DNA of 64,000 bases from Catellatospora sp. KI3 (lineage in GTDB: Bacteria; Actinomycetota; Actinomycetes; Mycobacteriales; Micromonosporaceae). The notes under the pieces are model-generated. The model searched no databases and was not told the origin of the DNA. It saw only the letters and a program-made list of their open reading frames with translations. The position numbers and the translations under genes were made by a program. The stretch lies in contig NZ_JASAMB010000015.1 in assembly GCF_029948125.1 (NCBI RefSeq), positions 62,001 to 126,000 on the forward strand. The letters are read 5' to 3'. Below are positions 21,638-51,388 of this stretch, in pieces; position 1 is the first letter of the stretch; the number at the start of each line of letters is the position of its first letter.

Positions 21638-21697
21638 GGCCCCGTCCCTCCCCGGCGTGATCGCCGACCGGTTCGCGAGAGTCTTTCTCTGCCGCCG

Positions 21698-35144: not shown

Positions 35145-35603
35145 TCAGGCGGCGGGGAGGGGGTCGAGGGTGACCTGGCGGGAGCGGACGAGCCAGCCGT
35201 CGGGGCTGTCCACCGACGGGACGAGGTTGTCCTGGCAGACGCAGTGCCGGTGCAGGCGCGGAGTGCCGTCGGCGGCGACCTGGATCACGATGGCGTAGCA
35301 GCGTACGTCGAGGGAGCCGTCGGCGGCGGGCGCCACCTTGACCATGCCGTGCCAGTGCCGCCGCAGCTCACCCTGCTCGGCGAGCTTGGCCCGGGTGTCG
35401 CGGACGGCCTGGGCCAGCACCGCCCGCCCGCGTACGGGCTGGGGCAGGCCGGGGGCGTGGAAGCTGCCGTCCTCGGTGAACGTGGCGGCCCACTGGTCCG
35501 GGTCGCCCTCGTCGAGCAGCTGCATGTGGCGGGCGTAGAACTGCTGGACGGCGAGGTACAGCGGGGCGGTGTCGAGGGTCTGGTTGAACGCGGTCAGTGC
35601 CAT
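35145..35603 (-). CDS. SnoaL-like / NTF2-fold polyketide-modifying protein
   Basis: A 152-residue protein with an NTF2-like alpha+beta barrel pattern of the SnoaL-like group: AVQQFYARHMQLLDEGDPDQWAATFTEDGSFH (helix and first strand, residues about 18-49) then a C-terminal sheet with RHWHGMVKV and RCYAIVIQV. In aromatic polyketide clusters such proteins act as ring cyclases, isomerases or hydroxylation partners. It is the last gene of the ten-gene polyketide operon, 32 bp after the cyclase gene. The reaction cannot be predicted. Confidence 0.8.
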   Translation of the reverse strand: MALTAFNQTLDTAPLYLAVQQFYARHMQLLDEGDPDQWAATFTEDGSFHAPGLPQPVRGRAVLAQAVRDTRAKLAEQGELRRHWHGMVKVAPAADGSLDVRCYAIVIQVAADGTPRLHRHCVCQDNLVPSVDSPDGWLVRSRQVTLDPLPAA

Positions 35604-35635
35604 TTCGGGTACACCTTTCAGGGCGGGACGGGAGG

Positions 35636-36403
35636 TCAGAGCAGGGCGACGGCGCGGGTCCAGCCGGCCCCGGCGCCTTTGATCTTGATCGGGAAGCAGG
35701 AGACGGTGAAGCCGTACGGCTGGGGCAGCGCGTCGAGGTTGGACAGCCGCTCGATCTGGCAGAACTCGCGCTCGCGGCCGGTGAAGTGGGCCGGCCACAG
35801 CACGCCCCGGTCGCCGGTCTCCTTGAACTTGGCCAGCATCTTGCCGAACGGTGCGTCCAGGCTGAACGCGTCCGTGCCGATCACCCGGATGCCCAGGTCG
35901 AGCAGGAAGTGGGTGGCCGAGGCGTCCAGGCCCTTGAAGTCGGTGAAGTAGCGCTGGGTGCCGGCCCAGGCCGAGGCGCCGGTGTGCAGCAGCACGATGT
36001 CCAGCGGGTTCGGGCGGTAGCCGATGCGGGCGAACTCCTTGTCCAGGAACTCGGCGTCGACGGTGTCGCCCTCGGCGCCGGTCAGGTCCAGCCGTACCCC
36101 CGGGCGGTGGAACCACTCCAGCGGCATCTCGTCGATGTGGCGCGGCACGCCGTAGGTCGCCGTGCTGCCGTAGTGCGACGGCGCGTCGATGTGGGTGCCG
36201 GTGTGCGTGGTGAGCTTGAGCGTGTCGATGGACAGCAGCTCGCCGTCGGGCAGCACGGCCGGGTCGAAGTCGACGCCGAAGTGCAGCTTCATCTCCTCGG
36301 CCATGTGGACCGCGCCCTCGGCCGGGGTGACGATCTCGTGGAGCACCGGCTCGGGCTCCCAGGCGGCCGCGTCCACCGGGGTGGACAGGTCGATCATGCG
36401 CAT
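35636..36403 (-). CDS. PF04199-type polyketide cyclase
   Basis: A 255-residue metal-dependent cyclase of the putative-cyclase/kynurenine formamidase fold. The metal-binding signature HTGTHIDAPSH at residues 67-77 (His 67, His 71, Asp 73, His 77) is intact, and a further VLLHTGAS lies near 140. Proteins of this type occur in type II polyketide clusters as later-ring cyclases (I recall the OxyN and MtmX group). It would act after the didomain aromatase/cyclase on a later ring closure. It lies ten bp behind the FAD monooxygenase stop, so the operon is tight. Confidence 0.82.
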   Translation of the reverse strand: MRMIDLSTPVDAAAWEPEPVLHEIVTPAEGAVHMAEEMKLHFGVDFDPAVLPDGELLSIDTLKLTTHTGTHIDAPSHYGSTATYGVPRHIDEMPLEWFHRPGVRLDLTGAEGDTVDAEFLDKEFARIGYRPNPLDIVLLHTGASAWAGTQRYFTDFKGLDASATHFLLDLGIRVIGTDAFSLDAPFGKMLAKFKETGDRGVLWPAHFTGREREFCQIERLSNLDALPQPYGFTVSCFPIKIKGAGAGWTRAVALL

Positions 36404-36413
36404 GTGCGCCTCC

Positions 36414-37652
36414 TCAGGTTGCGTCGGTGAACAGGTCGGTGCGTACCTGGGCGCGCGGGTTGCCGTAGCAGAGCAGGCGCGTCAGGCGGTGGCGCAGCGG
36501 TGTGCGCCCGATCAGTGCGGTGGCGGTGCGCCGGGCGGCGTCGGCCAGCGGCCGCCCGCTGCCCAGCGCGGTGCGCGCGTGGGACTGCTGGAACCGGATG
36601 ACCCGGTGCGCGTCCTCGGCGCGCGGCTCGGTGAAGGGCCGCAGCGCCTCGGCGCGGACCACGTCGGTGCCCGGCTCGCGCAGCTGCTCGACCAGGACCG
36701 GGTGGGCCAGCACCGCGTCCTGCAGCGCCAGGTTGATGCCCTGGGCGCCGAGCGGGCCGTGGGTGTGCGCGGCGTCGCCGAGCAGCAGCAGGCCGTCGCG
36801 CGACCAGCGCCGCGCGGTGCCGGTGAAGACGTCGAGCAGGCTCAGGTCGGCCAGGCTCTTCAGATGGGTACGGACCCCGTCGGCGTACTCCGGCGCCGCC
36901 CGGCACAGCTCGTCCCGGAACGCCCCGAACGGCCGCTCGGCGAACTCGGGGTAGCCGCCGTGCCGCAGCGCCCACCCCAGCTGCACCGTGTCGGGGCTGA
37001 CGCCGTAGCTGACCAGCATCCGCCCGCCCCCGCCGCGTACGGTCAGCGCCGTCGGGGCGCCGCCCGGCGCGGGCAGCCGGAACCACAGCAGGTCGTAGTC
37101 GGCCGCCTCGCGGCGGTCGTAGCGGATGCCCGCGAGCTGCCGGGTCTTGGAGTAGCGCCCGTCGGCCCCGATCACGCACCGGGAGTTGACCGTGACCGGT
37201 CCGCCGAGTCCGGTGAACACCGCCCCGCGTACCCCCTGCGGGGTGCGCAGCAGGTCGGTGACCCGGTGGCCCTCCAGGTACCGGAACAGCGGCTGCCGGC
37301 GGCAGGCGGCCAGCAGCTCCCGCAGCACGACCGGCTGCGGGACGGCCAGCAGCCGGCCGTACGGGCCCGGCAGCGTCCGGTAGTCGACCACCAGCAGCGG
37401 TCGGCCGTGGCTGTGCAGCTGCAGCCGCTCGTGCTCGTGGCTGCCCCGGGCACGGGCCGGTTCCAGCACGCCGAGCTGGTCGAGCACCGCCTGCCCGCCC
37501 GGTTGCAGCAGCTCGCCCCGGAACGAGCGGTCGAACGAGGTCGACTTCTCGACCAGGACCGTGTCCACGCCGGAGCGGGCGAGCAGCAGCGCCATGGCCA
37601 GCCCGGCCGGACCGGCCCCGACCACGCAGACGTCGGTCGACAGGGTCGCCAT
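36414..37652 (-). CDS. FAD-dependent aromatic monooxygenase
   Basis: A 412-residue single-component flavin monooxygenase (PF01494 class). It has the N-terminal GAGPAGLAMALLLARSG nucleotide-binding motif (about residues 12-28), VIGADGRYSKTR (the DG motif, about 162) and LLGDAAHTHGPLGAQGINL (the GD motif, about 290-310). Such enzymes hydroxylate aromatic polyketides or perform epoxidation or Baeyer-Villiger chemistry. It lacks the C-terminal thioredoxin-like domain found in some tailoring hydroxylases. GAGAGGAGG precedes ATG 37652. It is gene 8 of the polyketide operon. Confidence 0.88.
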   Translation of the reverse strand: MATLSTDVCVVGAGPAGLAMALLLARSGVDTVLVEKSTSFDRSFRGELLQPGGQAVLDQLGVLEPARARGSHEHERLQLHSHGRPLLVVDYRTLPGPYGRLLAVPQPVVLRELLAACRRQPLFRYLEGHRVTDLLRTPQGVRGAVFTGLGGPVTVNSRCVIGADGRYSKTRQLAGIRYDRREAADYDLLWFRLPAPGGAPTALTVRGGGGRMLVSYGVSPDTVQLGWALRHGGYPEFAERPFGAFRDELCRAAPEYADGVRTHLKSLADLSLLDVFTGTARRWSRDGLLLLGDAAHTHGPLGAQGINLALQDAVLAHPVLVEQLREPGTDVVRAEALRPFTEPRAEDAHRVIRFQQSHARTALGSGRPLADAARRTATALIGRTPLRHRLTRLLCYGNPRAQVRTDLFTDAT

Positions 37653-37684
37653 GGCGCCGCCTCCTCTCCTGGAACTCGGCTGGA

Positions 37685-39046
37685 TCAGGCCGGTACGGGC
37701 TCGGCGGTGAGCTCGCCGACCAGCGACGTGTCGTGCGTGCCCGCGATGAACCGCGGATGGTCCAGCACGGACAGCAGGAAGTCGCGGTTGGTGGCCAGCC
37801 CCGGCCCCTCGGCGTGGAACTCGGTCAGGGCGCGGCGCATCCGGGCCAGGGCCTGCGCCCGGTCGGGTGCCCAGACGCACAGCTTGGCCAGCAGCGGGTC
37901 GTAGGCGGGCGAGACCCTGCCCCCGGCGTACGCGTCGGTGTCGACCCGCACGAACGGCCCGCCCGGCAGCCGCAGCTGCTCGATCCGCCCCGGCGAGGGC
38001 ACGAAGCCCCGGTCCGGGTCCTCGGCGTTGATCCGGCACTCGATCGCGGCCCCGTGCGGGACCAGCGTCTCCTGGCTGAGTTCCAGCCGCTCCCCCGCCG
38101 CGACCAGCAGCTGCTGGCGGACGATGTCCACGCCGTGGGTGAGCTCGGTGACCGGGTGCTCGACCTGGATCCGGCAGTTGATCTCCATGAAGTGGTAGCC
38201 GCCGTCGGGGTCGACCAGGAACTCGAACGTGCCCGCCCCGACGTAGCCCGCGGCCAGCGCGCCCCGCAGGGCGGCCTCGCCCATGGCCCGGGTCGTCTCC
38301 TCCGGCAGCAGCGGCGCCGGGGTCTCCTCGATGATCTTCTGGCGGCGCCGCTGCGCCGAGCAGTCCCGCTGCCCCAGGTGGACGGCGCCGCCGTACTGGT
38401 CGCAGAGCACCTGCACCTCGATGTGCCGGGCCGAGGGCAGGAACCGCTCCAGGTAGAGCCGGTCGTCGCCGAACAGGCTCTGCGCGGTGCTGCGGGCCTC
38501 GCGCAGCTGCGGGATGAACTGGTCGGGATCGGTGATGGCGACCATGCCCCGGCCGCCGCCCCCGGCGACGGCCTTGACCATCACCGGGTACCCGATCTCG
38601 GCGGCGAGCCGGGCCGCCCCGTCCGGGCAGGTCACCGGGCCGGTGCTGCCGGGCAGCACGGGCAGCCCCGCGGCGGCCATCGTGGCGCGGGCGACGGCCT
38701 TGTCGCCCAGCCGGTCGATGACGGGTGCGGGCGGGCCCACGAACGTGATGCCGTACGCCTCGCACGCCTCGGCGAAGTCGCCGACCTCCGACAGGAACCC
38801 GTAGCCCGGGTGGACCGCGTCGGCGCCGGTGCGCCGGGCCGCCTCCAGGATCGCGGCGATGTCGAGGTAGCTGCTGCGGGCCGGGCCCGGTCCGATGCAG
38901 ACCGCGTCGTCTGCCATCCGCACCACGGCCGAGTCACGGTCCTCGGTGGAGTACACGGCCACTACCCGCAGCCCCAGCTCCCGGCAGGTGCGGGCGATGC
39001 GCAGCGCGATCTCGCCCCGGTTGGCGATGAGCACGGTGGTGAACAC
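37685..39046 (-). CDS. accC: acetyl-CoA carboxylase, biotin carboxylase subunit
   Basis: A 453-residue biotin carboxylase with the N-terminal VLIANRGEIALRI, the glycine-rich ATP lid KAVAGGGGRGM (about residues 157-167), and EINCRIQVEHPVTE carrying the metal and catalytic glutamates (about 285-298). It carboxylates the biotin on AccB. The pathway is malonyl-CoA supply. The gene lies between AccB and the monooxygenase in the polyketide operon (spaces 13 and 32 bp), so it is a cluster-dedicated paralogue, not necessarily the housekeeping enzyme. Length is normal for stand-alone AccC. Confidence 0.93.
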   Translation of the reverse strand: MFTTVLIANRGEIALRIARTCRELGLRVVAVYSTEDRDSAVVRMADDAVCIGPGPARSSYLDIAAILEAARRTGADAVHPGYGFLSEVGDFAEACEAYGITFVGPPAPVIDRLGDKAVARATMAAAGLPVLPGSTGPVTCPDGAARLAAEIGYPVMVKAVAGGGGRGMVAITDPDQFIPQLREARSTAQSLFGDDRLYLERFLPSARHIEVQVLCDQYGGAVHLGQRDCSAQRRRQKIIEETPAPLLPEETTRAMGEAALRGALAAGYVGAGTFEFLVDPDGGYHFMEINCRIQVEHPVTELTHGVDIVRQQLLVAAGERLELSQETLVPHGAAIECRINAEDPDRGFVPSPGRIEQLRLPGGPFVRVDTDAYAGGRVSPAYDPLLAKLCVWAPDRAQALARMRRALTEFHAEGPGLATNRDFLLSVLDHPRFIAGTHDTSLVGELTAEPVPA

Positions 39047-39059
39047 GTCGCGCCCCCGC

Positions 39060-39638
39060 TTACCGGTCGTGCCCGGCGGCGAGGCTGAACAGGCGGTCGC
39101 CGTACTCGACGGAGGTGCCGTCGGCGGCGTGGATGGCCACGATCCGGCCGTCGGCCTCCGCCTCGACCGGGATCATCAGCTTCATCACCTCGATGATCGC
39201 GACCTGCTGGCCGCGCCGGACCACGTCGCCCTCCACCACGAACGGCGCCGTACCGGGCTCCGCTGCCCGGTAGAACGTGCCGACCGTGGTGGCGCACAGG
39301 TCGCGCAGGTCCGTGGCGACCGGCGGCGCTGCCGGTGCCTCGACCGTCACCGTGACGGCGGCCTGCGCCGGAGCGGCCACCGGTGCGGGTGCCGGGACGA
39401 GCACCGACGCCGGTGGCGGCGCGGGTGCGGCGGTGGCCCACTCCAGCTCCACCAGCACCTCCCCGGCCCGGATGCGCAGCGCGCTGGGCGGGGTGCCCAC
39501 CTCGGCCAGCAGCCGCTGGGCGCTGCGGCGTACGTCGTCGAGGTCGTCGGCGATCGTGCGGCCGACCTCGGGCAGGCCGGCGAGCTCGCCGCCGGCGCAG
39601 GTCATCGCGGGCATGGACGGATCGAGAAGACCGGTCAC
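39060..39638 (-). CDS. accB: acetyl-CoA carboxylase biotin carboxyl carrier protein
   Basis: A 192-residue AccB. N-terminal region, then an Ala/Pro/Val-rich flexible linker (about 70-105, [16 protein letters not shown]), then the biotinyl domain (about 110-190). The biotin lysine is in EVMKLM (Lys 153), matching the usual E(A/V)MKM motif with Leu for one Met position. It shuttles carboxyl groups between AccC and the carboxyltransferase. The start is GTG 39638, overlapping the carboxyltransferase stop as GTGA, which ensures coupled translation in the polyketide operon. Confidence 0.92.
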
Positions 39639-41344
39639 CGTACCCCTCCTTCGGTGCTGACCAGCAGCTCTTCGGCTTGCTGGTGCCGTCGGCCGAACCG
39701 GCGGAACCGGGCGCGGCGCGCGGCGACCAGTGCGGTCCCGTGGCGGTCGGCCAGTTCGGTCAGCTCGGCATGGACCGCGTCGCGCAGCAGCAGGGCGGCG
39801 GCGGCATGGTCGGCCTCGGCGCCGCCGGGCGGCTCCGGGATGACGCCCTCGACGATCCCGAGCTCCAGCAGCGACCGCGCGTCGATGCGCAGCGCCTGGG
39901 CGGCCGTGGGCGCGGCGGCCGGGTCGCGCCACAGGATCGCGGCACACCCCTCGGGACTGATCACGGTGTATACGGCGTGTTCGAGCATGAGCACCCGGTC
40001 GGCCACGGCGATGCCGAGCGCGCCGCCGCTGCAGCCCTCGCCGGTGATCACGGTGACCACCGGGACGGGCAGCGAACCCATCAGGCGCAGGTTCTCCGCG
40101 ATCGCGGTGGCCTGGCCGCGCTGCTCGGCGTCCACCCCCGGGTACGCCCCGGGCGTGTCGACCAGCGTCACCACCGGCAGCCCCCACTTGGCGGCCAGCC
40201 GCAGCAGCCGGGCCGCCTTGCGGTAGCCCGCCGGATGCGCCATGCCGTAGTTGCGGGCGGCCAGCTCGCGGGTGGTGTGCCCCTTCTCGTGCCCGAGCAC
40301 CAGGACCGGGCTGCCGTTGAGCCGCCCGACGCCGCCGATGATCGCCGGGCAGTCCCCGCCGACGCGGTCGCCGTGCAGTTCCTCGAAGTCGTCGAGCATC
40401 AGCGACAGGTAGTCCGAGGTGGTGGGCCGCCGGATGTCGCGGGCCCGGCGCACCGCCTCCCAGGCGCTGCGTTCGGGCAGCCGCTCCGGCTCCCGGACGA
40501 CCACCGGCGCCACCGGATCCGGTGGGGTGTCGGCGGGCCGCCGGGTGGCGATGGACAGCAGCCGCCCCACCCGGTGCCGCAGCGCCGAGCGCGGGCAGAT
40601 CAGATCCAGGAAGCCGTGTTCGAGCAGCTTCTCGGCGGTCTGGAAACCGGGCGGCAGCTGCTCGCCGATGGTCTGCGCGATGACCCGCGGGCCGGCGAAG
40701 CCGAGCCGGGCGCCGGGCTCGGCGACCAGGACGTCGCCGAGCATCGCGTACGACGCCGCGACGCCCCCGTAGGTCGGGTCGGTGACCAGGCACATCGTCG
40801 GCAGCCCCGCCTCGTCGAGCTGGTGCAGCGCCTGGGCGGTCTTGGCCATCTGCATCAGCCCGATGACGCCCTCCTGCATGCGTACCCCGCCCGAGGCGGT
40901 GACCAGCAGCAGCGGGAGCCGCTCGGCGAGTGCCGTCTCGGCGGCCAGGGTGATGTGCTCGCCGACCCCGGCGGACAGGCTGCCGCCCAGGAACCGGAAG
41001 TCCATCACCGCGGCCACCACCGGCACCCCGGTGATCCGCAGCCGGGCGCAGACCACCGCCTCGGGCAGCCCGGTGGCGTGCCGGGCGTCGGCGACGCGCT
41101 GCGGGTACGGCTTGTGGTCGACGAAGCGCAGCGGGTCCTCGGCGACGTCGACGAGGTCCAGCGGCTCGATCGAGCCCGGGTCGGCCAGCAGGTCCAGCCG
41201 GTCCGGTGCGCTCAGCGGCTGGCAGTGCCCGCACCGGGGGCACACGCCGTGCCCCCGGGCCAGCCGTTTGGCGTAGCTGACGCCCTGGCACCGGCCGCAC
41301 GACACCCACCGCGCCGTGGGGTCGTCGACCTGTGCCGCGTTCAC
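39635..41344 (-). CDS. fused AccD-AccA carboxyltransferase
   Basis: A 569-residue acetyl-CoA carboxylase carboxyltransferase with beta (AccD) and alpha (AccA) halves fused. A zinc ribbon opens the protein (Cys 16, 19, 35, 38). The beta half has [12 protein letters not shown] and [11 protein letters not shown]. The alpha half starts about residue 300 and has [30 protein letters not shown], and [16 protein letters not shown], the oxyanion-forming Gly motifs. It transfers CO2 from biotin to acetyl-CoA to give malonyl-CoA. In Escherichia coli the halves are separate. The GTG start overlaps the ACP stop. Fused forms are known in several type II polyketide clusters. Confidence 0.9.
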
Positions 41345-41598
41345 GACGCGATCCGGGCCGTGCTGACCAGATCGATCAGCTGCGCCGGGGTCCGGACCGC
41401 CAGCACCGCGTCGTCGGGCAGCTTGATGCTCAGCTCACGCTGCAGGCGGGCGGTGGTCTCCAGCAGGGCCAGGGAGTCGTAGCCCAGGTCGGCGAAGCTG
41501 GTCTGGCTGATGTCGCCGTCGAGGGCGCTCGAGGCACCGGCGACGTCGGAGAGCACCCGGCGTACGTCGTCGATGGTGAAGTCGGAAACGGTGGACAT
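41341..41598 (-). CDS. type II polyketide acyl carrier protein
   Basis: An 85-residue acyl carrier protein. The phosphopantetheine serine is Ser 42 in [12 protein letters not shown], followed by the LxxLVS helix. It carries the growing poly-beta-ketone chain for KS-alpha/KS-beta. No phosphopantetheinyl transferase gene is in the window, so one elsewhere must activate it. GAGGAGG lies before the ATG at 41598, implying strong translation. It sits in the minus-strand operon, separated from the KS genes by the divergent promoter, whereas many clusters place ACP next to KS-beta. Confidence 0.93.
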
Positions 41599-41625
41599 GG
41601 TGGAGCCTCCTCGGTCACGACGGGA

Positions 41626-41919
41626 TCAGGCGGCGACGGGTTCGACGACCGCGTCGTAGAGGTCGTGCTCGGGCACGGCCACGGCGGCCAGCTCCCGCAC
41701 GTGCACCCGGAACCCGTCGGTGGCCACGGCGTTGGCGTGGTCGGCCGGGTCGGCCCACTGCACGGTCTCGACGAACACGTTGGGCTCGCGCCGGGAGCGG
41801 TAGCACTGCCGGCCCAGGAAGCCCGGCTGTGCCGCCATGTAGTTGTTGAGGTTGCGCATGACCTGCTCGAACTGGGCGACGTCGCCGCGGACGGTGAGCC
41901 GGTTGATGAAGGTGACCAT
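41626..41919 (-). CDS. ABM-family monooxygenase
   Basis: A 97-residue antibiotic biosynthesis monooxygenase (ABM) domain protein with a dimeric alpha+beta barrel pattern: VTFINRLTVRGDVAQFEQVMRNLNNYMAAQPGFLG and FVETVQWADPADHANAVA. Cofactor-free ABM oxygenases oxidise anthrones to anthraquinones in actinorhodin and tetracenomycin pathways. Cyclase relatives (TcmI-like) share the fold, so an oxygenase or cyclase role are both possible. It lies 15 bp downstream of the ligase gene, with AGGAGA before the ATG. Confidence 0.82.
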   Translation of the reverse strand: MVTFINRLTVRGDVAQFEQVMRNLNNYMAAQPGFLGRQCYRSRREPNVFVETVQWADPADHANAVATDGFRVHVRELAAVAVPEHDLYDAVVEPVAA

Positions 41920-41933
41920 GGTGTTTCTCCTGT

Positions 41934-43625
41934 TCAGACGGTCTTGGAGTGGGCGGCGGAGAGCCGCCCGTGCAGCTGGGTGCGGATGTCGCGGCGGCGC
42001 ACCTTGCCGGTCGCCGAGCGCGGGATCTCGCGGACCAGCTCGATGCCGTGCAGGTGCTGGTAGTCGGGCAGCTGCCCGTTGACGAAGGCGATGACGTCGT
42101 CGCCGGTGACGTCCTCGTCGTCGGTGACGACCAGGGCGTACGCGACCGCGCCGCGCTCGGGGTGGGGCAGGTCGACGACCATGCAGTCCACGACGGCCGG
42201 GTGCCGGGCCACGGTGCGCTCGACCTCCACCGGCGACACCAGCCAGTTGTCGCACTTGAAGACGTCCTTGAGCCGGTCGACCAGGAACAGCGCCCCGTCG
42301 GTGTCGAGGTAGCCCACGTCGCCGGTGTCGAACCACCCGTCGGCGTCGACGGGCCGCTGCACCGAGCCGTCGGCGGCCAGGTAGCCGGCCATCACCTGCG
42401 GCCCGGACACCTGCACCTCGCCGGGCTGGCCCGGTGGCAGCGGCTGCCTGGTGTCGAGGTCGACCACCCGGCAGCCGGTGCCGGGGACCGGCCGGCCGAC
42501 CGAGCCCGGCCGCGGCGCGTCGATGCGGTCGCAGTGGGTCAGCGGCGAGGTCTCGGCCAGGCCGTACCCCTGGATGACCGGCACCCCGAGCGCGGCCGAC
42601 AGCCGGGCCGCGGCCGACGGCGACAGTGCCGAGCCGCCCGACAGCACGGCCCGCGCGGTCGGCAGCTGCCAGCCCGGCAGGCGCGGGTCCCCGGCCATCC
42701 GGGCCAGCCGCACCGGCAGGCTGTAGAAGTGGGTGGCCCCGGTGGTGCGGGCCAGTGACACCGCCTCGGCCGGATCCCCGGCCGGGACCAGCACCTGGGT
42801 CGACCCGGCGCACACGGCCGAGTTCAGGTGCATCGGGTGGTACGTGGGCAGGTGGTTCAGGCCGACCGTGGTCGCCCCCAGCCCGTGCGCCAGCGCCACC
42901 TGCGCCGCGTTGTAGACCACGTTGCGGTGCGTGAGCAGCACCGCCTTGGGCCGCCCGGTGGTGCCGCTGGTGAACTGCGCGACCGCCACGGCGTCGGGAT
43001 CGGCGCGGTGCTCGGGCGCCGGCGTGCCCCGGTGCCGCCGGGACATCCCGGCCAGGGTGAACAGGCCGCCCTCGCCGGGCCGGTCCAGGTACACCACGTG
43101 GCGCAGGTTGGGCAGGTCGAGCCGGATGGCGCGCAGCCGGTCGGCCATGTCGGCGACCGCGACGAGCACCCGTACGTCGGCCGACTCCAGCACCCAGTGC
43201 AGTTCGTCGGCGCCCTGCAGCGGGTTGACCACCGCGCAGACGTGTCCGGCCCGGACGGTGCCGTAGTAGGCCACCGCGAACGCCGGGTCCAGCGCGGCGG
43301 CCACCCCGACCATGGACGCCCCGCCGAGCGCGGCGGCGCCGTGCCCGGTCGGCAGCAGCTCCAGCAGGGCCGCGGCGAAGTTGTCGGCGGCCGCGTCGAG
43401 CGCGGCGAACGACACCGTACGCTGGCCCGACTTGATCGCCGCCCGCCCCGGCGCGGTGCGGGCGGCGTGGCGCAGCAGCCCGTCCGCGGTCCCGCCGCTG
43501 CGGTCGAGCACCGCCGCGAGCCGCCGCGCCGGATCGTCGTCCGGGTCGGTCAGCACCGCCTCGGGCAGGACCCCGCGCAGCAGGGCCGGGTCGGGCGGTG
43601 CGCCCGCCACCGTCGCCTCACGCAT
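41934..43625 (-). CDS. acyl-CoA ligase / AMP-dependent synthetase
   Basis: A 563-residue ANL-superfamily enzyme. Adenylation motifs: TSGTTGRPKAVLLTHRN (about 223-239), GYGLAETSPLTH (about 360), GWFDTGDVGYLD (about 450), and the C-terminal lysine in SATGKVRRRDI. It would activate a carboxylic acid with ATP and pass it to CoA or an ACP. In the cluster it could load a non-acetate starter unit or act on a released acid product. Its start overlaps the aromatase/cyclase stop by eight bases, so it is coupled with the cyclase. Substrate cannot be deduced from the sequence by eye. Confidence 0.88.
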   Translation of the reverse strand: MREATVAGAPPDPALLRGVLPEAVLTDPDDDPARRLAAVLDRSGGTADGLLRHAARTAPGRAAIKSGQRTVSFAALDAAADNFAAALLELLPTGHGAAALGGASMVGVAAALDPAFAVAYYGTVRAGHVCAVVNPLQGADELHWVLESADVRVLVAVADMADRLRAIRLDLPNLRHVVYLDRPGEGGLFTLAGMSRRHRGTPAPEHRADPDAVAVAQFTSGTTGRPKAVLLTHRNVVYNAAQVALAHGLGATTVGLNHLPTYHPMHLNSAVCAGSTQVLVPAGDPAEAVSLARTTGATHFYSLPVRLARMAGDPRLPGWQLPTARAVLSGGSALSPSAAARLSAALGVPVIQGYGLAETSPLTHCDRIDAPRPGSVGRPVPGTGCRVVDLDTRQPLPPGQPGEVQVSGPQVMAGYLAADGSVQRPVDADGWFDTGDVGYLDTDGALFLVDRLKDVFKCDNWLVSPVEVERTVARHPAVVDCMVVDLPHPERGAVAYALVVTDDEDVTGDDVIAFVNGQLPDYQHLHGIELVREIPRSATGKVRRRDIRTQLHGRLSAAHSKTV

Positions 43626-44541
43626 GCGCCGGCTCCTCGGCGAACGCCTGCGCGTGGCGCAGCGTCTGCAGCGAGTTGGTGCTGAGCACGCGGCGCAGGT
43701 AGCGGCGCGCGTCGGCGACCGTGGTGTTCTCGCCGAGCAGGTTCAGCGCGTCCGGCCGGATGGTGGCGGTGTGCCGGGCGGTGACCGTGACGCCCTCGGG
43801 CGTGGTCTGGAAGTGCCAGTGCCCGGTGTGCGCGTCGAGCAGCTTCGGCAGCCCGATCTGCTTGTAGATGATCTTGTGGGGCAGGCAGATCCGCACCGAG
43901 CGGGTGGTGTGCGCGCGGCCCTCCGGGGTGACCGTGTCCATGTCGAAGAACTGCACCCCGGGCTGGTCCTCGGTCATCGACAGCGCGGTGACGTGCGGGA
44001 CCCGCTCGGGCCACTTGTCGGCGTCGTAGAGGAAGCCGTACACGGCCTCGGTGTTGCCCGCGATGAACAGCGGGTCCTCGAAGTGGACCACCAGCTCCTT
44101 GAGCTGGTCCCAGTTCTCGGCGATGGCGGCGACCCGGGCGATCTGCTCGTCGGCGCCCTTGAGGTGCGCGGCGACGGCGTCGCGGCCGCTGTTGCTGTTC
44201 TGGCCGTCGGCGCGCAGCGTCAGCTCGGCCTCGCAGGTGCCGTCTGCGGCGGGGCGGAACCGCCACTGGACGCCGGCCGAGGTCAGCGGGGCCTGGCAGT
44301 CGACCTGGTCGTAGGTGACGGTCAGCCCGCTGCGGTCCAGGGTGCGGCGGCTGGCCCAGTGGCGTACGCCGTCGCCTTCCAGCGCCCACCAGCGCACCAC
44401 GTCGCCGTCCTCCTCGGCGTACACGCCGTCGGGGAAGAACTGGGGCCAGTGCCGCAGGTCGGTCACGATCTCGAAGGCGACCGACGCGGGTGCCTTGATG
44501 ACCGCGGTGCGGGTCTCGGTGCGGTTGGTGCTCTTGGACAT
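43618..44541 (-). CDS. didomain aromatase/cyclase (SRPBCC)
   Basis: A 307-residue protein with two START/SRPBCC (polyketide cyclase) domains: one at about 10-140 (AFEIVTDLRHWPQFFPD, with RRWWALEGDGVRHW-like strand) and one at about 155-300 (GNTEAVYGFLYDADKWPERVPHVTAL). Didomain proteins close and aromatise the first ring of type II polyketides. The family member that handles C9-reduced chains is usually didomain, yet no ketoreductase is visible nearby. ATG 44541 follows GAAGGAG. It is the first gene of the minus-strand operon, directly behind the divergent control region. Confidence 0.9.
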   Translation of the reverse strand: MSKSTNRTETRTAVIKAPASVAFEIVTDLRHWPQFFPDGVYAEEDGDVVRWWALEGDGVRHWASRRTLDRSGLTVTYDQVDCQAPLTSAGVQWRFRPAADGTCEAELTLRADGQNSNSGRDAVAAHLKGADEQIARVAAIAENWDQLKELVVHFEDPLFIAGNTEAVYGFLYDADKWPERVPHVTALSMTEDQPGVQFFDMDTVTPEGRAHTTRSVRICLPHKIIYKQIGLPKLLDAHTGHWHFQTTPEGVTVTARHTATIRPDALNLLGENTTVADARRYLRRVLSTNSLQTLRHAQAFAEEPAHA

Positions 44542-44792
44542 GGGTGCTCCTTCGCATCTGGACGGGCCGCACGGTGTCGCGGCCGGACCGGTCTGTGAGA
44601 AACCGTCGCAGTCCGTCACTTGAGCCCGGGTCGAGTCCGACTTGAATGCCCAGGTCAGGCACTTGCGGTCGCAAAAAATACCCAACCGGCCAATTGTGTG
44701 GAAATCGCACTTCGGGCCCACGAAGCGCCAATAGTGGGAGAGGTGGTCTTCAACCGCGCCTACCGGCCGGATCCCGCACTTGGGGGTAGCAC
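44542..44792. promoter_or_regulatory. divergent promoter with SARP-like direct repeats
   Basis: Contains the repeats CACTTGA (44617-44623), GACTTGA (44639-44645) and CACTTGC (44660-44666), spaced by 22 and 21 bp (two helical turns), and another CACTTGG at 44777-44783 just before the SARP start. SARP proteins bind heptamer direct repeats with 11- or 22-bp periodicity. An AT-rich patch at 44670-44710 (AAAAAATACC, CAATTGTG) is a plausible promoter core. Confidence 0.55.
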
Positions 44793-45638
44793 ATGCTGTT
44801 TCGGGTACTCGGACCGCTGACCGTAGGGTCGCCGTTCGCCGCCGGAGAACGACTGACCGCGCCGAAACCGCGCAAGGCGCTGGCGCTGCTGCTGATGCAC
44901 GCCGACCGGGTCGTGCCCACCGACCTGCTCTTCACCGAGCTGTGGGACGACGAGCCGCCCGCCAGCGCGCAGACCACGCTGCAGACCTACATCCTGCAGA
45001 TCCGGCGGATGCTGGCCCGCACATTCGCGCTGGACCCGGCCGCCGTGGCCCGGGACCTGCTGGTCACCGCCTCCGACGGCTACCGGATGCAGGTGCGCGA
45101 CCGGCCCGGCGCCGGCGGCGACGAGCTGGACCTGCACTGCTACGAGCGGCTGGCGGCGCAGGGGCGGCACGCCGCCGACTGCGGCGACCACGGCCGGGCC
45201 GCCCGCCTGCTCGGCCAGGCGCTCGACGTGTGGCGGGGGGCGGCACTGGTCGACGTACGCGTCGGCGCGGTGCTGCGGGTGGAGACCCGGCGGCTGGAGG
45301 AGGACCGGCTGGCCACCTGGAAGCAGCGCATCGACGCCGACCTGGCCCTGGACCGCCACCACGAGATCCTGGGCGAGCTCAGCAGCCTGGCCGCCCGGCA
45401 TCCGCTGCACGAGGACCTGCAGGCCCAGTACATGATCGCGCTGTACCGGGCCGGGCGGCGCACCGACGCCCTGCAGGCGTTCCAGCAGCTGCGCGGCGTA
45501 CTGCTGGACGACCTCGGGCTCGAGCCGTCCCGCCGCATGCAGCACATCCAGCGCGCCATCCTCAGCGCCGACCCGGCCCTGGACGCCTCGGCGCCGTACG
45601 CCGAAGCCGGGGTCCTGGCCGGCGCGGGCGCGCGCTGA
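44793..45638 (+). CDS. SARP-family pathway-specific activator
   Basis: A 281-residue Streptomyces antibiotic regulatory protein: an OmpR-type winged helix (about 1-95, [41 protein letters not shown]) followed by a bacterial transcriptional activator (BTAD) TPR-like domain (about 105-260, [30 protein letters not shown]). SARPs switch on aromatic polyketide clusters by binding direct repeats near -35. It lies first in the plus-strand unit with KS-alpha and KS-beta, so it probably autoregulates through the divergent repeats. GGGGG is seven bases before the ATG. Confidence 0.9.
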
Positions 45639-45684
45639 CGCACCTCATGACGCTCGACCACAACCGACCCACGGGGAGGCCCGC

Positions 45685-46950
45685 ATGCAACGACGAGTCG
45701 TGATCACCGGGATGGGCGTGATAGCCCCCGGCGGCATCGGCACCAAGGCGTTCTGGGAGCTGCTGACCAGCGGCCGGACCGCCACCCGCACCATCTCCTT
45801 CTTCGACCCGTCGCCGTTCCGCTCGCAGGTGGCGGCCGAGTGCGACTTCGACCCGGCCGCGCACGGCCTGACCGCCGCGCAGATCCTGCGGATGGACCGC
45901 GCGGCCCAGTTCGCCGTGGTCGCCGCGGCCGAGGCGGTCGCCGACGCCGGGATCGAACCGGCCGAACTCGACCCGACCCGGCTGGGCACCGTGGTGGGCA
46001 GCGCCGTCGGCGCCACCACCAGCCTGGAGCGCGAGTACGTCATCGCCTCCGACCGGGGCCGGAACTGGCTGGTCGACAACACGGACACCTCGCCCCACCT
46101 GTACGACTACTACGTCCCCGGCTCGTTCGCCGCCGAGGTGGCCTGGTCGGTCGGGGCCGAGGGCCCGGCCGCGGTGGTCTCCACCGGCTGCACCTCCGGC
46201 CTGGACGCGGTCGCGCACGCGGTCGAGCTGATCCGCGAGGGCAGCGCCGACCTGGTCGTCGGCGGCGCCACCGACGCGCCCATCTCGCCCATCACCGTGG
46301 CCTGCTTCGACGCGATCAAGGCGACCACGCCGCGCAACGACGACCCGGCACACGCCTCGCGCCCGTTCGACAACAGCCGCAACGGGTTCGTCCTCGGCGA
46401 GGGCGCGGCCATGTTCGTGCTCGAGGAGTACGAGCACGCCCGCCGCCGCGGCGCCGAGATCTACGCCGAGATCGTCGGCTTCGCCTCGCGCTGCAACGCC
46501 TTCCACATGACCGGCCTGCGCCCCGACGGCCGCGAGATGGCCGAGGCCATCACGCACGCCCTCGGCCTGGCCAGGCTCGACCCGACGCGGATCGGGTACG
46601 TCAACGCGCACGGCTCGGGCACCAAGCAGAACGACCGGCACGAGACCGCCGCCGTCAAGCTGGCGCTGCGCGACCACGCGTACGCGACACCCATGAGCTC
46701 GATCAAGTCGATGGTCGGCCACTCGCTCGGCGCGATCGGCGCCATCGAGGTCGCCGCCTGCGCCCTGGCCATCGCCGAGAACGTCGTCCCGCCCACCGCC
46801 AACCTGCACGAACCCGACCCCGAATGCGACCTGGACTACGTACCCAACGAGGCACGCGACCGGCACCTGGACGCGGTGCTGTCGGTCGGCAGCGGCTTCG
46901 GCGGCTTCCAGAGCGCGATGGTCCTGGCCCGCCCGGAGGCGACCCGATGA
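45685..46950 (+). CDS. type II PKS ketosynthase alpha (KS-alpha)
   Basis: A 421-residue ketosynthase that elongates malonyl-ACP units. All residues of an active KS are in register with the well-studied actinorhodin enzyme: Cys 169 ([10 protein letters not shown]), His 309 (NAHGSGTK), Lys 341 and His 346 (GHSLGAIG). It forms a heterodimer with the KS-beta partner encoded directly downstream with an ATGA overlap. GGGGAGG precedes the start. The sequence is a standard KS-alpha of the aromatic polyketide type. Confidence 0.96.
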
Positions 46951-48200
46951 GCACCCAGACCGCCGCCCGCCCGCGGCACCGCGAGCCCGGCCAGGCCCGC
47001 GCCGTCGTCACCGGCATCGGTGTGCTGGCGCCGACCGGCCTGAACACCCACGACTTCTGGCAGGCGGCCCTGGCCGGACGCAGCGGCATCGGCCGGATCG
47101 AACGCTTCGACCCCGGCCAGTACGCCGCGCGGCTGGCCGGCGAGATCCGCGACTTCGACCCGGCCGCGCACCTGCCCGAGCGGCTGCTGCCGCAGACCGA
47201 CCACGTCACCCGGCTGTCGCTGGTCGCCGCCGAGCAGGCCCTCGCGGACGCGGGCGTCGACCCGGCCGCGCTGCCCGAGTACGGCATGAGCGTGGTCACC
47301 GCCAGCTCCGCCGGGGGCTTCGCCTTCGGCCAGAACGAGCTGGAGAAGCTGTGGGCCAAGGGCAGCGACCACGTCTCGGCGTACCAGTCGTTCGCCTGGT
47401 TCTACGCCGTCAACACCGGGCAGATCTCCATCCGGCACGGCATGCGCGGCCCCAGCGGGGTGCTGGTCACCGACTCGGCGGGCGGGCTCGACGCGGTCGG
47501 GCAGGCCCGGCGCAACCTGCGCGGCGGCACCGCGCTCGCGGTCACGGGCGGCGTCGACGGCTCGCTGTGCCCGTGGGGCTGGATCGGCCAGCTCGCCGAG
47601 GGCGGCATGAGCCGCCGCGACGACCCGGCGCGGGCGTACCTGCCGTTCGACCGCGACGCGGACGGCTGGGTGCCCGGCGAGGGCGGCGCGATCCTCATCG
47701 TCGAGGACGCCGCGGCCGCGGCCGCGCGGGGCGCCGGCCGGGTCTACGGCGAGATCAGCGGGTACGCCGCCACGTTCGACCCGCCCCCGGGCAGCGGCCG
47801 CCCGGCCGGGCTGCTGCGCGCGATCCGGCTGGCGCTGGCCGACGCGGGCCGGGACGCGTCCGAGGTGGACGTGGTCTTCGCCGACGCGGCCGGGGTGCCG
47901 GCCCTGGACCGGGCCGAGGCGCGCACGCTGGCGCAGGTGTTCGGCCCGCACGCGGTCCCGGTGACCGCGCCGAAGGCGGCGACCGGGCGGCTGGCCGCGG
48001 GCGCGGGGAGCCTGGACATCGCCGCCGCGCTGCTCAGCCTGCGCGACGGCGTCATCCCGCCGACGCCCAACGTCACCTCGCCCGCGTACCCGGACCTCGA
48101 CCTGGTCGTCGGCGTCCCGCGCGAGACCGACCCGCGCACCGCCCTGGTCCTGGCCCGCGGCACCCACGGCTTCAACGCCGCCGTCGTCCTCACCCGCTGA
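46947..48200 (+). CDS. type II PKS chain-length factor (KS-beta)
   Basis: A 417-residue ketosynthase-like partner without an active-site cysteine. The segment that normally reads (E/D)QAGG with Gln in place of Cys reads [16 protein letters not shown], putting Ser 177 at that position. Other regions ([27 protein letters not shown]-type sites replaced by [12 protein letters not shown]) match chain-length factors. KS-beta lines the tunnel with KS-alpha and helps set chain length and decarboxylative priming; the Gln is linked to the latter. ATG 46947 overlaps the KS-alpha stop. The predicted chain length cannot be given by eye. Confidence 0.93.
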
Positions 48201-48227
48201 CCCGCCGACCCCCTCAGCGGTCAGGCA

Positions 48228-48287
48228 GCACTTTCGGGGAAAGTGCGCGAATGGAACGCCTCATTCGTGCGCTTTCCCCGAAACTGC
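48228..48287. repeat. dispersed palindromic element B, copy 3
   Basis: The left hairpin GCACTTTC-GGG-GAAAGTGC (48228-48246) is perfect. GCGCGAATGG and CATTCGTGCGC continue the stem to the right end CCCCGAAACTGC. It is 27 bases behind the KS-beta stop and may act as a terminator for that operon. Confidence 0.8.
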
Positions 48288-48465
48288 ATCCTCGGCCCGG
48301 GTGCTCGGCGCAGCGCGGCGGCGGGTTGTGCGGGGGGTGACGGTGTGGCTGTTTGTGCTGGTCAAGCGGGGCCGATAGGGTGACCGCGGTTCCGGGCAAT
48401 TACGACATTTGGTCGAAACCTGACGCCCGGACCTCCAGGCACCCGGCCGAACAGGGGAACGATCG

Positions 48466-50394
48466 ATGTATCGACGGCAACTGCTGAGCGCCGCAACTCT
48501 CGGGACGGCGGCGCTGCTGCTGCCGGGCCGCACCGCGTGGGCCGCCGCGCGGGTCCGCCTCAGCCCCACGAAGATCGCCAAGTACAAGGTGCGGCTGCCG
48601 ATCCCGGCGGCCATGCCCGCGGTCAGCCGCAAGGGCGACACCGACGTGTACCGGATCGCGGTGCGCCAGCTGCGCCGCCAGGTGCTGCCGCCGGGCCTGC
48701 CCAAGACCACCCTCTGGGGGTACGGCGCCGTCGGCCACCCCGCCTCGTTCGGCTACCCGGCCTGCACCATCGAGGCGACCGTCGCCCGCCCGGTACAGGT
48801 CACCTGGGCCAACGAGCTGTACGACAAGGACGGCCACTTCCGCCCGCACCTGTTCGCGGTCGACCCGACGCTGCACTGGGCGAACCCGCCCGGCGGCAAG
48901 GACGGCCGGGACATGGACGGCGAGTTCACCAAGACGCCGGGGGCGTACCAGGGGCCGGTGCCGCTGGTCACGCACGTGCACGGGGCGCACACCGGCGACG
49001 AGTCGGACGGCCACCCGATGGCGTGGACCCTGCCCGCCGCGAACAACCTGCCTAAGGGCTACGCGGTCGGCGGCACCAACCACGACCTGTACCGCGACCG
49101 GGCCGAGGACGACGGGGCGACCTGGCAGGCGGGGACGACGGTCTGCCGGTACCCGAACGACCAGGCACCGGGCACGCTGTGGTACCACGACCACACGCTC
49201 GGCATGACCCGCCTCAACGTGTACGCCGGACCGGTCGGCTTCTACCTGCTGCGCGGCGGCGACACCGACCTGCCCGCGGGCGTGCTGCCCGGCCCCGCGC
49301 CGCAGCCGGGCGACACGGAGGGCACCCGCCACTACGAGCTGCCGCTGGTCGTCCAGGACCGCTCCTTCCACACCGACGGCTCGCTGTACTACCCGGGCAG
49401 CCGGGCGGAGTTCTTCGACCACTTCGCCGGGCCGTACGTGCCCGACAGCGACATCGCGCCGATGTGGAACCCGGGGTTCGCCGGTGACACGATGGTGGTC
49501 AACGGAGCGACCTGGCCCCGGACCCCGGTCGAGCCCCGGCGCTACCGGCTGCGGCTGCTCAACGCCTGCAACTCCCGTACCCTCATCCTGAAGATCGCCT
49601 CCTCCGCGACCGCCGCCCGGCCCGCGGCGGCCGCGGTGCCGTTCTGGCAGATCGGCGCCGACGGCGGCTACCTGGCCAAGCCGGTACAGCTGGACCAGCT
49701 GCTGCTGGCCAGCGGCGAGCGCGCCGACGTGATCGTCGACTTCACGGGTGCCAAGCCCGGCACCCAGCTGTTCCTGATCAACGAGGGCCCGGACGGGCCG
49801 TTCGCGGGCGGCCAGGTCGGCGGGGCGTTCCAGGCGGCCGACCCGGCCGGCACCGGCCAGGTGCTGCGCTTCGACGTGCAGCCGCTGCGCGGCAAGGACA
49901 CCACGGTCCCCGCCGACCAGCTGACGCTGCCCAAGACCGCGGCCTCCCCGGCCGCGACGGTCACCCGCCGGGTGATGCTGGACGAGCTGGACTCGGCGGT
50001 GCTGACCGGGGTCGGCGGCCGGGTCGCGATGCTGGGCACGGTCAGCACCGACCGCAAGCAGAAGCTGCTGCACTGGCACGACGACGCCACCGAGACGCCG
50101 ACCGCCGGGGACACCGAGACCTGGGAGATCCTCAACTTCACCGACCACGCCCACCCGGTGCACCTGCACCAGGTGCAGTTCGAGGTGCTGAGCCGCAACG
50201 TCTTCCTGCAGCCGACCCGCCCCGCCGACCCCGGCGAGACCGGCCGCAAGGACACCGTGATCACCTACCCGGGCGAGGTCACCCGCATCAAGGCCACCTT
50301 CGACCTGCCCGGCCAGTACGTGTGGCACTGCCACATCCTGGAGCACGAGGACAACGAGATGATGCGCCCGCTGACCGTCGCGCCGCGCCACTGA
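48466..50394 (+). CDS. Tat-exported multicopper oxidase
   Basis: A 642-residue multicopper oxidase with an N-terminal twin-arginine-type signal (YRRQLLSAATLG, cleavage after about 27). All four copper motifs are present: THVHGAHTG (about 168), WYHDHTLG (about 238), HPVHLHQVQF (about 563) and WHCHILEHEDNEMM (about 620), giving the T1 Cys-His pair and the trinuclear centre. The T1 axial residue would be the Met in EHEDNEMM. It oxidises phenols, metals or bilirubin-like compounds outside the cell. It resembles the CotA/bilirubin oxidase type. It follows the polyketide genes after a 265-bp gap, so coupling to the cluster is possible but unproven. Confidence 0.92.
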   Translation: MYRRQLLSAATLGTAALLLPGRTAWAAARVRLSPTKIAKYKVRLPIPAAMPAVSRKGDTDVYRIAVRQLRRQVLPPGLPKTTLWGYGAVGHPASFGYPACTIEATVARPVQVTWANELYDKDGHFRPHLFAVDPTLHWANPPGGKDGRDMDGEFTKTPGAYQGPVPLVTHVHGAHTGDESDGHPMAWTLPAANNLPKGYAVGGTNHDLYRDRAEDDGATWQAGTTVCRYPNDQAPGTLWYHDHTLGMTRLNVYAGPVGFYLLRGGDTDLPAGVLPGPAPQPGDTEGTRHYELPLVVQDRSFHTDGSLYYPGSRAEFFDHFAGPYVPDSDIAPMWNPGFAGDTMVVNGATWPRTPVEPRRYRLRLLNACNSRTLILKIASSATAARPAAAAVPFWQIGADGGYLAKPVQLDQLLLASGERADVIVDFTGAKPGTQLFLINEGPDGPFAGGQVGGAFQAADPAGTGQVLRFDVQPLRGKDTTVPADQLTLPKTAASPAATVTRRVMLDELDSAVLTGVGGRVAMLGTVSTDRKQKLLHWHDDATETPTAGDTETWEILNFTDHAHPVHLHQVQFEVLSRNVFLQPTRPADPGETGRKDTVITYPGEVTRIKATFDLPGQYVWHCHILEHEDNEMMRPLTVAPRH

Positions 50395-50458: not shown

Positions 50459-50830
50459 TCACATCTGCAGGTCGGTTTCGATGGTCTTGAGCTTGTGCCG
50501 GGCCATGGCCAGGTTGGCCCGGGTCCGGCTCAGCACCATGTACAGGAACAGCCCCTGGGTGTTGCGGCTGGTCAGCGGTCGGATGACGTGATACTGGCCG
50601 CCCAGGGTGATCAGGATGTCCTCGATCGAGTCCTTGAGCTTCAGCATCTCCAGCGTGCGCAGCTTCGCCCGGACCACGTCGGTGTTGCCCGCCGCCGCGA
50701 TGGTCAGGTCGAACTCCTTCGAGCTGCCGAGCGTGCCCAGCGCCATACCGCTGGTGTAGTCGACGAGCGCGACGCCGATCGCGCCCTCGATCTGCATCGC
50801 CTCCTGCAGCGAACTCTCCATGTCGGCCAT
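50459..50830 (-). CDS. roadblock/LC7 domain protein D
   Basis: A 123-residue roadblock/LC7-fold protein. The pattern EGAIGVALVDYTSGMALGTLGS (first strands) and EDILITLGGQYHVIRPLTS (second) is typical. Roadblock proteins are scaffolds or GTPase-activating partners for small GTPases such as MglA and the Streptomyces conservon CvnD. It is the last gene of a four-gene minus-strand operon, 51 bp after protein C. It resembles protein A (52416-52793) more than protein C: both have a short ILIT/IVIT-GN-type second strand. Confidence 0.82.
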   Translation of the reverse strand: MADMESSLQEAMQIEGAIGVALVDYTSGMALGTLGSSKEFDLTIAAAGNTDVVRAKLRTLEMLKLKDSIEDILITLGGQYHVIRPLTSRNTQGLFLYMVLSRTRANLAMARHKLKTIETDLQM

Positions 50831-50881
50831 CGGTTCCTCGTTTCTCCTCTTGCCCTGCGATGAGGGGTGATCTGCGGTGCG

Positions 50882-51388
50882 CTAAGCGGGGTGGTAGACG
50901 GCGCCCATCAACTGACCGATGCGGGCGGCCACCGGCCGGGCCTCGTGGTGCAGCCGGGCGACGTTCAGATCGGGTCCGGCCACGACGGTCAGCAGCGCCG
51001 TCTGTCCCGCCGCGAAGGTGGCGACGTACCCGTTGGTGGCGGCGGTGACCGTCTCGCGGAAGTCGCCGCTGCGCAGCGCCGCCACGATCTGCTGGCCCAG
51101 GCCGAGCTGGGCGGCCGACATCGCCGCGAACACCTCCGGCTCGATGCCCGGGGTGTCCTCGGCGATGAGCATGCCGTCGACGCTGGCCACCAGCACGCCG
51201 GTGACGTACGGGACGCGCAGGCGCAGCTCGCGCAGCTCCGCCTGCAGCGGGATCTGGGTCTCGGTGTCCACGACGACACCTCTCTTCCGGGTCTGGGGGA
51301 TGTCCTGGGGGATGTCCTGGGCGGCATGGCGGGGCTCGTGGCTGGGCTCCTGCTCGCGGCGCAGCAGGTCCAGCAGCGCTCGGATCAC
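50882..51388 (-). CDS. roadblock/LC7 domain protein C
   Basis: A 168-residue roadblock/LC7 protein. The domain lies at about residues 45-160 (VPYVTGVLVASVDGMLIAEDTPGIEPEVFAAMSAAQLGLGQQ, GYVATFAAGQTALLTVVAGPDLN). The GTG at 51388 forms a GTGA overlap with the stop of protein B, so translation is coupled; the first about 40 residues then include a short DIPQDIPQ duplication. A second GTG at 51271 with GAGAGG ahead of it would give a 129-residue protein lacking that leader. Closest in character to CvnB-type proteins. Its partner GTPase is not in the window. Confidence 0.8.
   Translation of the reverse strand: MIRALLDLLRREQEPSHEPRHAAQDIPQDIPQTRKRGVVVDTETQIPLQAELRELRLRVPYVTGVLVASVDGMLIAEDTPGIEPEVFAAMSAAQLGLGQQIVAALRSGDFRETVTAATNGYVATFAAGQTALLTVVAGPDLNVARLHHEARPVAARIGQLMGAVYHPA

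Follow-up and report, generated by a model that had tools for sequence, protein, structure and literature searches.

A type II polyketide gene cluster of Catellatospora without its own ketoreductase carries a didomain aromatase of the StfQ/MtmQ type

Gene calling and Pfam searches in a 64-kb stretch of Catellatospora sp. KI3 (the window, C7:62001-126000 of a draft genome in 96 contigs) revealed a type II polyketide synthase (PKS) cluster of 14 genes, arranged in two divergent units at 35145-50394 (Table 1). The minus-strand unit is transcribed in the order aromatase, acyl-CoA ligase, ABM mono-oxygenase, acyl carrier protein (ACP), fused AccD-AccA, biotin carboxyl carrier protein (BCCP), AccC, FAD oxygenase, PF04199 cyclase and SnoaL_4 protein. 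The order on the plus strand is SARP, KS-alpha, KS-beta and multicopper oxidase. Overlaps of 4-8 bases were found at four neighbouring gene pairs (aromatase/ligase, ACP/AccDA, AccDA/BCCP and KS-alpha/KS-beta). An earlier reading of this DNA, made from its letters and open reading frames (the sequence-only reading), had described the cluster at 35145-48200, and every gene that it named was confirmed there by gene calls and Pfam. Its extent had to be revised: the genes at 35145-48200 are real, but the conserved unit runs further right, to the multicopper oxidase ending at 50394. For the SARP gene the script had picked 44895 as the start; the DNA-binding domain extends upstream of that position, and the start was therefore placed at 44793.

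Table 1. Features of the type II PKS cluster and its control regions in the window.
Feature	Position	Strand	Basis
SnoaL_4-domain protein, 152 residues, MtmX/StfX-like by size and company	35145..35603	-	Pfam, 74.5 bits; same place in 11 of 11 Catellatospora
PF04199 cyclase, 255 residues, MtmY/StfY/OxyN-type	35636..36403	-	Pfam, 107.1 bits
FAD mono-oxygenase, 412 residues, MtmOI-like by size and position	36414..37652	-	Pfam FAD_binding_3, 158 bits; PDB search; synteny
Biotin carboxylase AccC, malonyl-CoA supply	37685..39046	-	Pfam, three domains
BCCP with EVMKLM	39060..39638	-	Pfam, motif
Fused AccD-AccA carboxyltransferase, 569 residues	39635..41344	-	Pfam
ACP with GYDSL	41341..41598	-	Pfam, motif
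ABM mono-oxygenase, 97 residues, MtmOIII-like by size and position	41626..41919	-	Pfam, 41.6 bits
Acyl-CoA ligase, 563 residues, MtmL/SsfL2-like role proposed	41934..43625	-	Pfam, 248.4 bits; synteny
Didomain aromatase/cyclase, 307 residues, non-reducing StfQ/MtmQ clade	43618..44541	-	Two Polyketide_cyc stretches (Pfam), PDB search, tree
Three tandem heptamers (TTGAGCC, TCGAGTC, TTGAATG) spaced at 11 bp in the divergent promoter region, candidate SARP site	44620..44648	+	Repeat pattern
SARP regulator, 281 residues	44793..45638	+	Pfam BTAD, 137.5 bits
KS-alpha, active-site Cys present (TGCTSG)	45685..46950	+	Pfam, motif
KS-beta / chain length factor, Ser for the usual Gln at residue 177	46947..48200	+	Pfam, alignment
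Hairpin with 23-bp stem, after KS-beta	48232..48283	+	Coordinates from the fold of 48215-48300
Multicopper oxidase, 642 residues, twin-arginine signal, CotA-like	48466..50394	+	Pfam, PDB search, synteny, motifs

The cluster is kept in a genus group of 11 genomes, including that of the window; 20-kb regions were compared for the 10 others. In a scan with KS-beta, from which the best 80 of 526 confirmed relatives were kept, the top matches came from five named Catellatospora, with identities of 74-77% for KS-beta and 90% for KS-alpha. Each of the 11 genomes has all 14 genes, with identical order and orientation, and we therefore concluded that they are no chance grouping. No clear truncation was seen among the open frames of the 14 genes in the 10 relatives; the multicopper oxidase match crosses one stop in three of them, yet the frames there comprise 653-692 codons. 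Among the neighbours that were queried, the AAA and GNAT genes on the left and the 123-residue gene at 50459 on the right turned up in no more than two of the 10 others (L189 and L190), so that the SnoaL_4 gene and the multicopper oxidase gene mark the cluster ends. In eight of the 11 genomes (L191-L198) the ABM mono-oxygenase and the acyl-CoA ligase share a single uninterrupted open frame of about 640 codons; the window and two relatives have two separate genes instead.

The best solved relative of the window aromatase was StfQ (PDB 4xrt) with 283 bits and 48% identity, compared with 158 bits and 33% identity for BexL. The alignment with StfQ covers residues 10-305 of 307. A tree was built from 106 didomain aromatases, using tblastn matches (E<=1e-25) that spanned 230 or more query residues, with identical cores dropped; the fragment L153 (G437) and aromatase matches without a locus were left out. 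The rows are aromatases, hence one locus may give two of them (L056). The tree split into 20 StfQ-side and 86 BexL-side rows with a support of 100/100, the bootstrap being not fully settled (correlation 0.966). On the StfQ side we found the window, the 10 other Catellatospora, StfQ and eight others, including M. halophytica (L072/L180) with an aromatase 75% identical to StfQ. By sequence comparison the window aromatase is thus assigned to the non-reducing StfQ/MtmQ clade, which it shares with StfQ of the steffimycin pathway and the M. halophytica protein. Reducing didomain aromatases of the BexL type are alike in fold family and length, but differ in identity (33%) and lie on the other side of the tree. 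The first Arg of TTRSVR in the C-terminal domain occurs in 20 of 20 StfQ-side rows and in 11 of the 86 others. An N-terminal Trp was rejected as a class marker, being present in only two of the 20 StfQ-side rows; StfQ and the M. halophytica aromatase have it, and 18 of the 20, the window with its Arg66 included, have Arg at this place.

StfQ and MtmQ appear in a 2025 review as an aromatase class of their own, "no KR, didomain, C7-C12" (PMC12664062), where KR stands for ketoreductase. Passages in PMC5321127 and PMC7247220 also back non-reducing didomain C7-C12 aromatases, and StfQ is called non-reducing in a passage of PMC11476836 too. According to PMC5321127, StfQ acts via its C-terminal domain and BexL via its N-terminal domain. 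The sequence-only reading had started from the premise that didomain aromatases as a rule act on C9-reduced chains. This matches Table 1 of PKMiner (PMC3462128), where didomain aromatases are linked to reduced chains (28 didomain aromatases, 25 C9 ketoreductases), but it is incomplete, StfQ and MtmQ being published as non-reducing. Of the two ways out that it had offered, an aromatase taking an unreduced chain is supported by the tree, which sets the window on the StfQ side and apart from BexL. The apparent paradox of a cluster without reductase is accounted for by an already known aromatase class, and an apparent exception to the aromatase rules is thereby removed; with an aromatase of the StfQ/MtmQ type, a missing KR is expected.

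No Pfam KR domain (PF08659) was detected in the whole 64-kb window, in line with the earlier claim that the cluster has no KR; of 47 matches in the genome, the sole one on contig C7 lies at C7:36536-36997. The other way out, a reductase elsewhere in the genome, was not borne out either by Pfam KR or by a search with an alignment of act-type KRs. In the latter search the best short-chain dehydrogenase/reductase (SDR) of the window's genome reached 147 bits, while KRs outside the query alignment scored 428-469 bits and one 308 bits. The five named Catellatospora and M. halophytica gave a best SDR of 151-158 bits. The 504 and 487 bits of Kutzneria and Kitasatospora come from KRs that belong to the query alignment itself.

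The KR status of the aromatase loci, which are about 3 to 21 kb long, was determined by tblastn with two KR queries (>250 bits), and all 18 StfQ-side locus rows were also checked over 20-kb regions. An act-type KR was present in the locus in 77 of 85 BexL-side locus rows, compared with 0 of 18 on the StfQ side. This suggests a simple genomic rule for the present sample, with no act-type KR within 20 kb of StfQ-side aromatases and usually one in the locus of BexL-side ones. The KR label is independent of a similarity marking that 20 of the aromatase rows had received beforehand. Of the 18 genomes that contributed StfQ-side locus rows, 16 gave no act-type KR; G535 and G483 have one beside another aromatase. 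Among the 11 Catellatospora genomes only G535 has such a KR, beside its own second, BexL-side aromatase (L206), and in G483 and G437 the KR likewise adjoins a second aromatase.

Eight BexL-side rows had no KR in the locus. The genomes behind seven of them were searched and an act-type KR was present in all seven. Its distance from the aromatase is about 12-13 kb in G563, G557 and G445 and about 41 kb in G031; G190 has it next to another aromatase, and in G602 and G603 it is on contigs unplaced with respect to the aromatase. In the eighth (L133/L204, G360) the BexL-side aromatase sits close to the end of a contig, and the 150 candidates scored out of 167 included no act-type KR. For G007, G531, G587, G483, G360, G190, G031 and G603, the first look covered 150 of a larger number of candidates. 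In G563, G557 and G445 (L199, L200 and L202) the KR lies beyond the fetched 20-kb stretch, which warns against inferring the lack of a reductase from a short window.

Alternatively, C9 could be reduced in trans, by an SDR encoded elsewhere or by a primary-metabolism FabG, and the aromatase would then work on a reduced chain. The genome offers material for this, with 24 SDR matches at E<=1e-25 beside the PF08659 matches, and the KR of G031 illustrates that a KR can lie far from a BexL-side aromatase. We nevertheless consider reduction in trans very unlikely: the best SDR of the window's genome stays far below the scores of act-type KRs, none of these was found in 10 of the 11 cluster-keeping genomes (in G531, 150 of 158 candidates were scored), and the aromatase is placed on the StfQ side of the tree. 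This placement, together with the kept active-site motifs, also speaks against an ordinary reducing aromatase of the BexL/ActVII type in a decaying cluster that has lost its KR gene. Decay would agree with the absent KR and with the KS-beta Gln position, which is variable within the genus (Ser, His, Gln), but hardly with a gene order kept in all 11 genomes and with 14 genes free of clearly truncated frames in the 10 relatives, the three interrupted laccase matches included; we give it next to no credence. We concluded that the cluster very probably encodes a complete type II PKS pathway of the early steffimycin/mithramycin type, without a short-chain reductase of its own.

For mithramycin, PMC7247220 reports that MtmPKS, MtmQ and MtmY lead to 2-hydroxy-nogalonic acid, and proposes that ring four is closed by MtmL together with MtmX. 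A passage in PMC11101304 describes 2-hydroxylated anthracyclinones after replacement of KR and aromatase by mtmQY, and 2-hydroxy products from mtmQY with a foreign minimal PKS. Judged by family, size and company, the window has genes that match MtmP/K/S, Q, Y, X and L, and by size and position it also has OI-like and OIII-like genes. Its genes for ABM, ligase and aromatase correspond to mtmOIII-L-Q, and those for FAD oxygenase and PF04199 cyclase to mtmOI-Y, with the mtm order as given in PMC7247220. Unlike the mithramycin cluster, the 14 genes include no oxygenase of the size of MtmOII (531 residues, against 412 for the only FAD oxygenase) and no reductase of the MtmTI/TII type, Pfam having assigned none of the 14 proteins to an SDR or KR family. 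No deoxysugar, glycosyltransferase or methyltransferase gene of an aureolic acid pathway was detected among them by Pfam, and the carboxylase and laccase genes are extra.

The M. halophytica region (L180) resembles the window cluster: it has PF04199 cyclase, SnoaL-like, ABM and SARP genes, in a genome that likewise yielded no act-type KR. It differs in holding an SDR, of which the window cluster has none. The PF04199 cyclase was 84-98% identical in the 10 other Catellatospora and 63-69% in eight of nine other regions (L180-L188). Two further cluster types were set aside. For an anthracycline cluster, as characterised in PMC11101304, the 14 genes contain no methyltransferase or 7-ketoreductase for the core. 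The aromatase of the whiE spore-pigment cluster is a monodomain TcmN/WhiE-type C9-C14 enzyme, whereas that of the window is a didomain protein of the StfQ side. Among the papers listed by a literature search (titles and abstract starts), none reported on the cluster, its product or a type II product of Catellatospora, which is not proof of absence.

The pocket of KS-beta has G and L in the alignment where act has T and F. We take this to indicate a chain longer than an octaketide, and nothing beyond that. At residue 177 the window and two of its close relatives have Ser instead of the usual Gln; two other members of the genus have His and six have Gln. The best 80 of 526 KS-beta relatives have Q in 67, H in six, E in four and G in three cases. 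The other KS-beta motifs are kept despite the replacement. An alternative starter unit as a result of the Gln loss was considered and set aside, as 13 of the 80 relatives also have no Gln and six other Catellatospora keep it. The KS-beta tree was uninformative as a proof of chain length.

In the proposed pathway, the carboxylase (AccC, BCCP and AccDA) would make malonyl-CoA, from which KS-alpha, KS-beta and ACP would build a long poly-beta-ketone, most likely a decaketide. The aromatase, with its class given by phylogeny, would close and aromatise the first ring C7-C12 on the unreduced chain, so that the oxygen that a C9 ketoreductase could remove would be retained in this ring. Rings two and three would be formed by the PF04199 cyclase. 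The acyl-CoA ligase may activate the carboxylate and, with the SnoaL-like protein, close ring four in the manner of MtmL/MtmX, and the ABM and FAD oxygenases may then oxidise the tetracycle. Judged by its signal and position, the laccase-type multicopper oxidase would act last and extracellularly. The SARP presumably controls both divergent units. By analogy with mithramycin, the product is likely an unreduced decaketide tetracycle of the 2-hydroxy-nogalonic-acid or premithramycinone-precursor type that is oxidised later, and it would be a free, unreduced tetracyclic polyphenol or quinone. This is consistent with the fused-ring phenol or quinone of the sequence-only reading. From the cluster one could learn which compound results from MtmL/MtmX-type ring closure if no reductase acts afterwards.

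Several points weigh against this interpretation. The 20 StfQ-side rows were marked by similarity before the tree was built, and the tree placed them on one side of a branch. The N-terminal Arg in place of the Trp of StfQ means that the mechanism may differ from that of StfQ. In PMC8488855 the substrates are stated the other way round (BexL nonreduced, StfQ partially reduced), which we take for a slip. The match to mtm is one of family, size and order, in which MtmQ and the other mtm proteins were set beside the window by description only. The decaketide length is drawn from this pathway match and the two pocket residues of KS-beta; these are nearly constant across the best 80 of 526 relatives and therefore cannot separate C18, C20 and C24. 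A quick KS-beta tree gave a separate Catellatospora clade, with L023, a KR-bearing locus, as the nearest outside row by path, and KS-beta thus gives no support for kinship with other StfQ-side clusters. Finally, a strong hairpin lies between KS-beta and the laccase gene, which suggests that the latter has its own transcript.

The multicopper oxidase gene, outside the coordinates of the sequence-only reading, adjoins KS-beta on the same strand in 11 of 11 genomes. Residues 38-641 of the protein match the laccase CotA (PDB 1gsk) with 244 bits, and the best PDB match, 9bd5, is also named spore coat protein A. The HCHxxxHxxxxM motif of CotA is kept; unlike CotA, the window protein has a twin-arginine signal and sits beside a PKS cluster. 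Its motifs HVHG, HDH, HPVHLH (HTVHLH in eight of 10 relatives) and HCHILEHEDNEM presumably make up a complete copper-ligand set. The copper-ligand histidines and the twin-arginine stretch are kept in the 10 relatives.

Whether the laccase belongs to the pathway depends on how its surroundings are weighed. It may be an unrelated neighbour, with the pathway ending at the two oxygenases within 35145-48200: the terminator-like hairpin precedes its gene, paralogues of 57-59% identity are found elsewhere in eight of the 11 genomes, and the StfQ-side regions L180-L188 contain no homologue at E<=1e-6. On the other side stands its adjacency on the KS-beta strand in every genome of the group, while the next gene outward in the window was not found in eight of the 10 others. 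We regard an unrelated neighbour as quite possible, at somewhat less than an even chance. Because of the paralogues, the lack of homologues in L180-L188 and the hairpin, a part of the laccase in the pathway is put forward only as a hypothesis. Its boldest form, which we hold to be rather unlikely, is a genus-wide pigment: a wholly unreduced decaketide tetracycle, made without short-chain reductase, exported and oxidatively coupled extracellularly by a dedicated, twin-arginine-exported CotA-like laccase. If true, this would be a bacterial parallel, with a type II PKS, to the PKS-laccase pigments of fungi. The cluster could also reveal if a type II polyketide of a bacterium is completed by a laccase. 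The papers listed by a literature search on laccases with type II PKS (titles and abstract starts) dealt mainly with fungi or with laccase enzymes.

The outer two of the three heptamers in the divergent promoter region are kept in 11 of 11 genomes and the middle one varies. Scored against a consensus, 10 of 2000 single-base shuffles did equally well. SARP sites are described in a passage of PMC10972967 as heptameric direct repeats, classically 11 bp apart. The 86-nucleotide stretch 48215-48300 after KS-beta folds at -54.1 kcal/mol (z -8.55), and its hairpin is a possible transcription terminator. Long stems of differing sequence were seen at this position in eight of 10 relatives, judged by eye and without a shuffle control. 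Across the relatives the stems look as if they had been swapped for different palindromic elements.

To the right of the laccase gene four small genes were called at 50459-52793 of the window; two of them, 50459-50830 and 51385-52416, were scanned and gave no Pfam family. Further to the left, the window holds a gene run at 17352-23933 with DUF6745, a HemN-like radical-SAM protein and a sulfatase-like protein. It also includes a second radical-SAM match below the Pfam cut-off and two proteins with no or only sub-threshold family match, and is possibly a peptide or tailoring locus.

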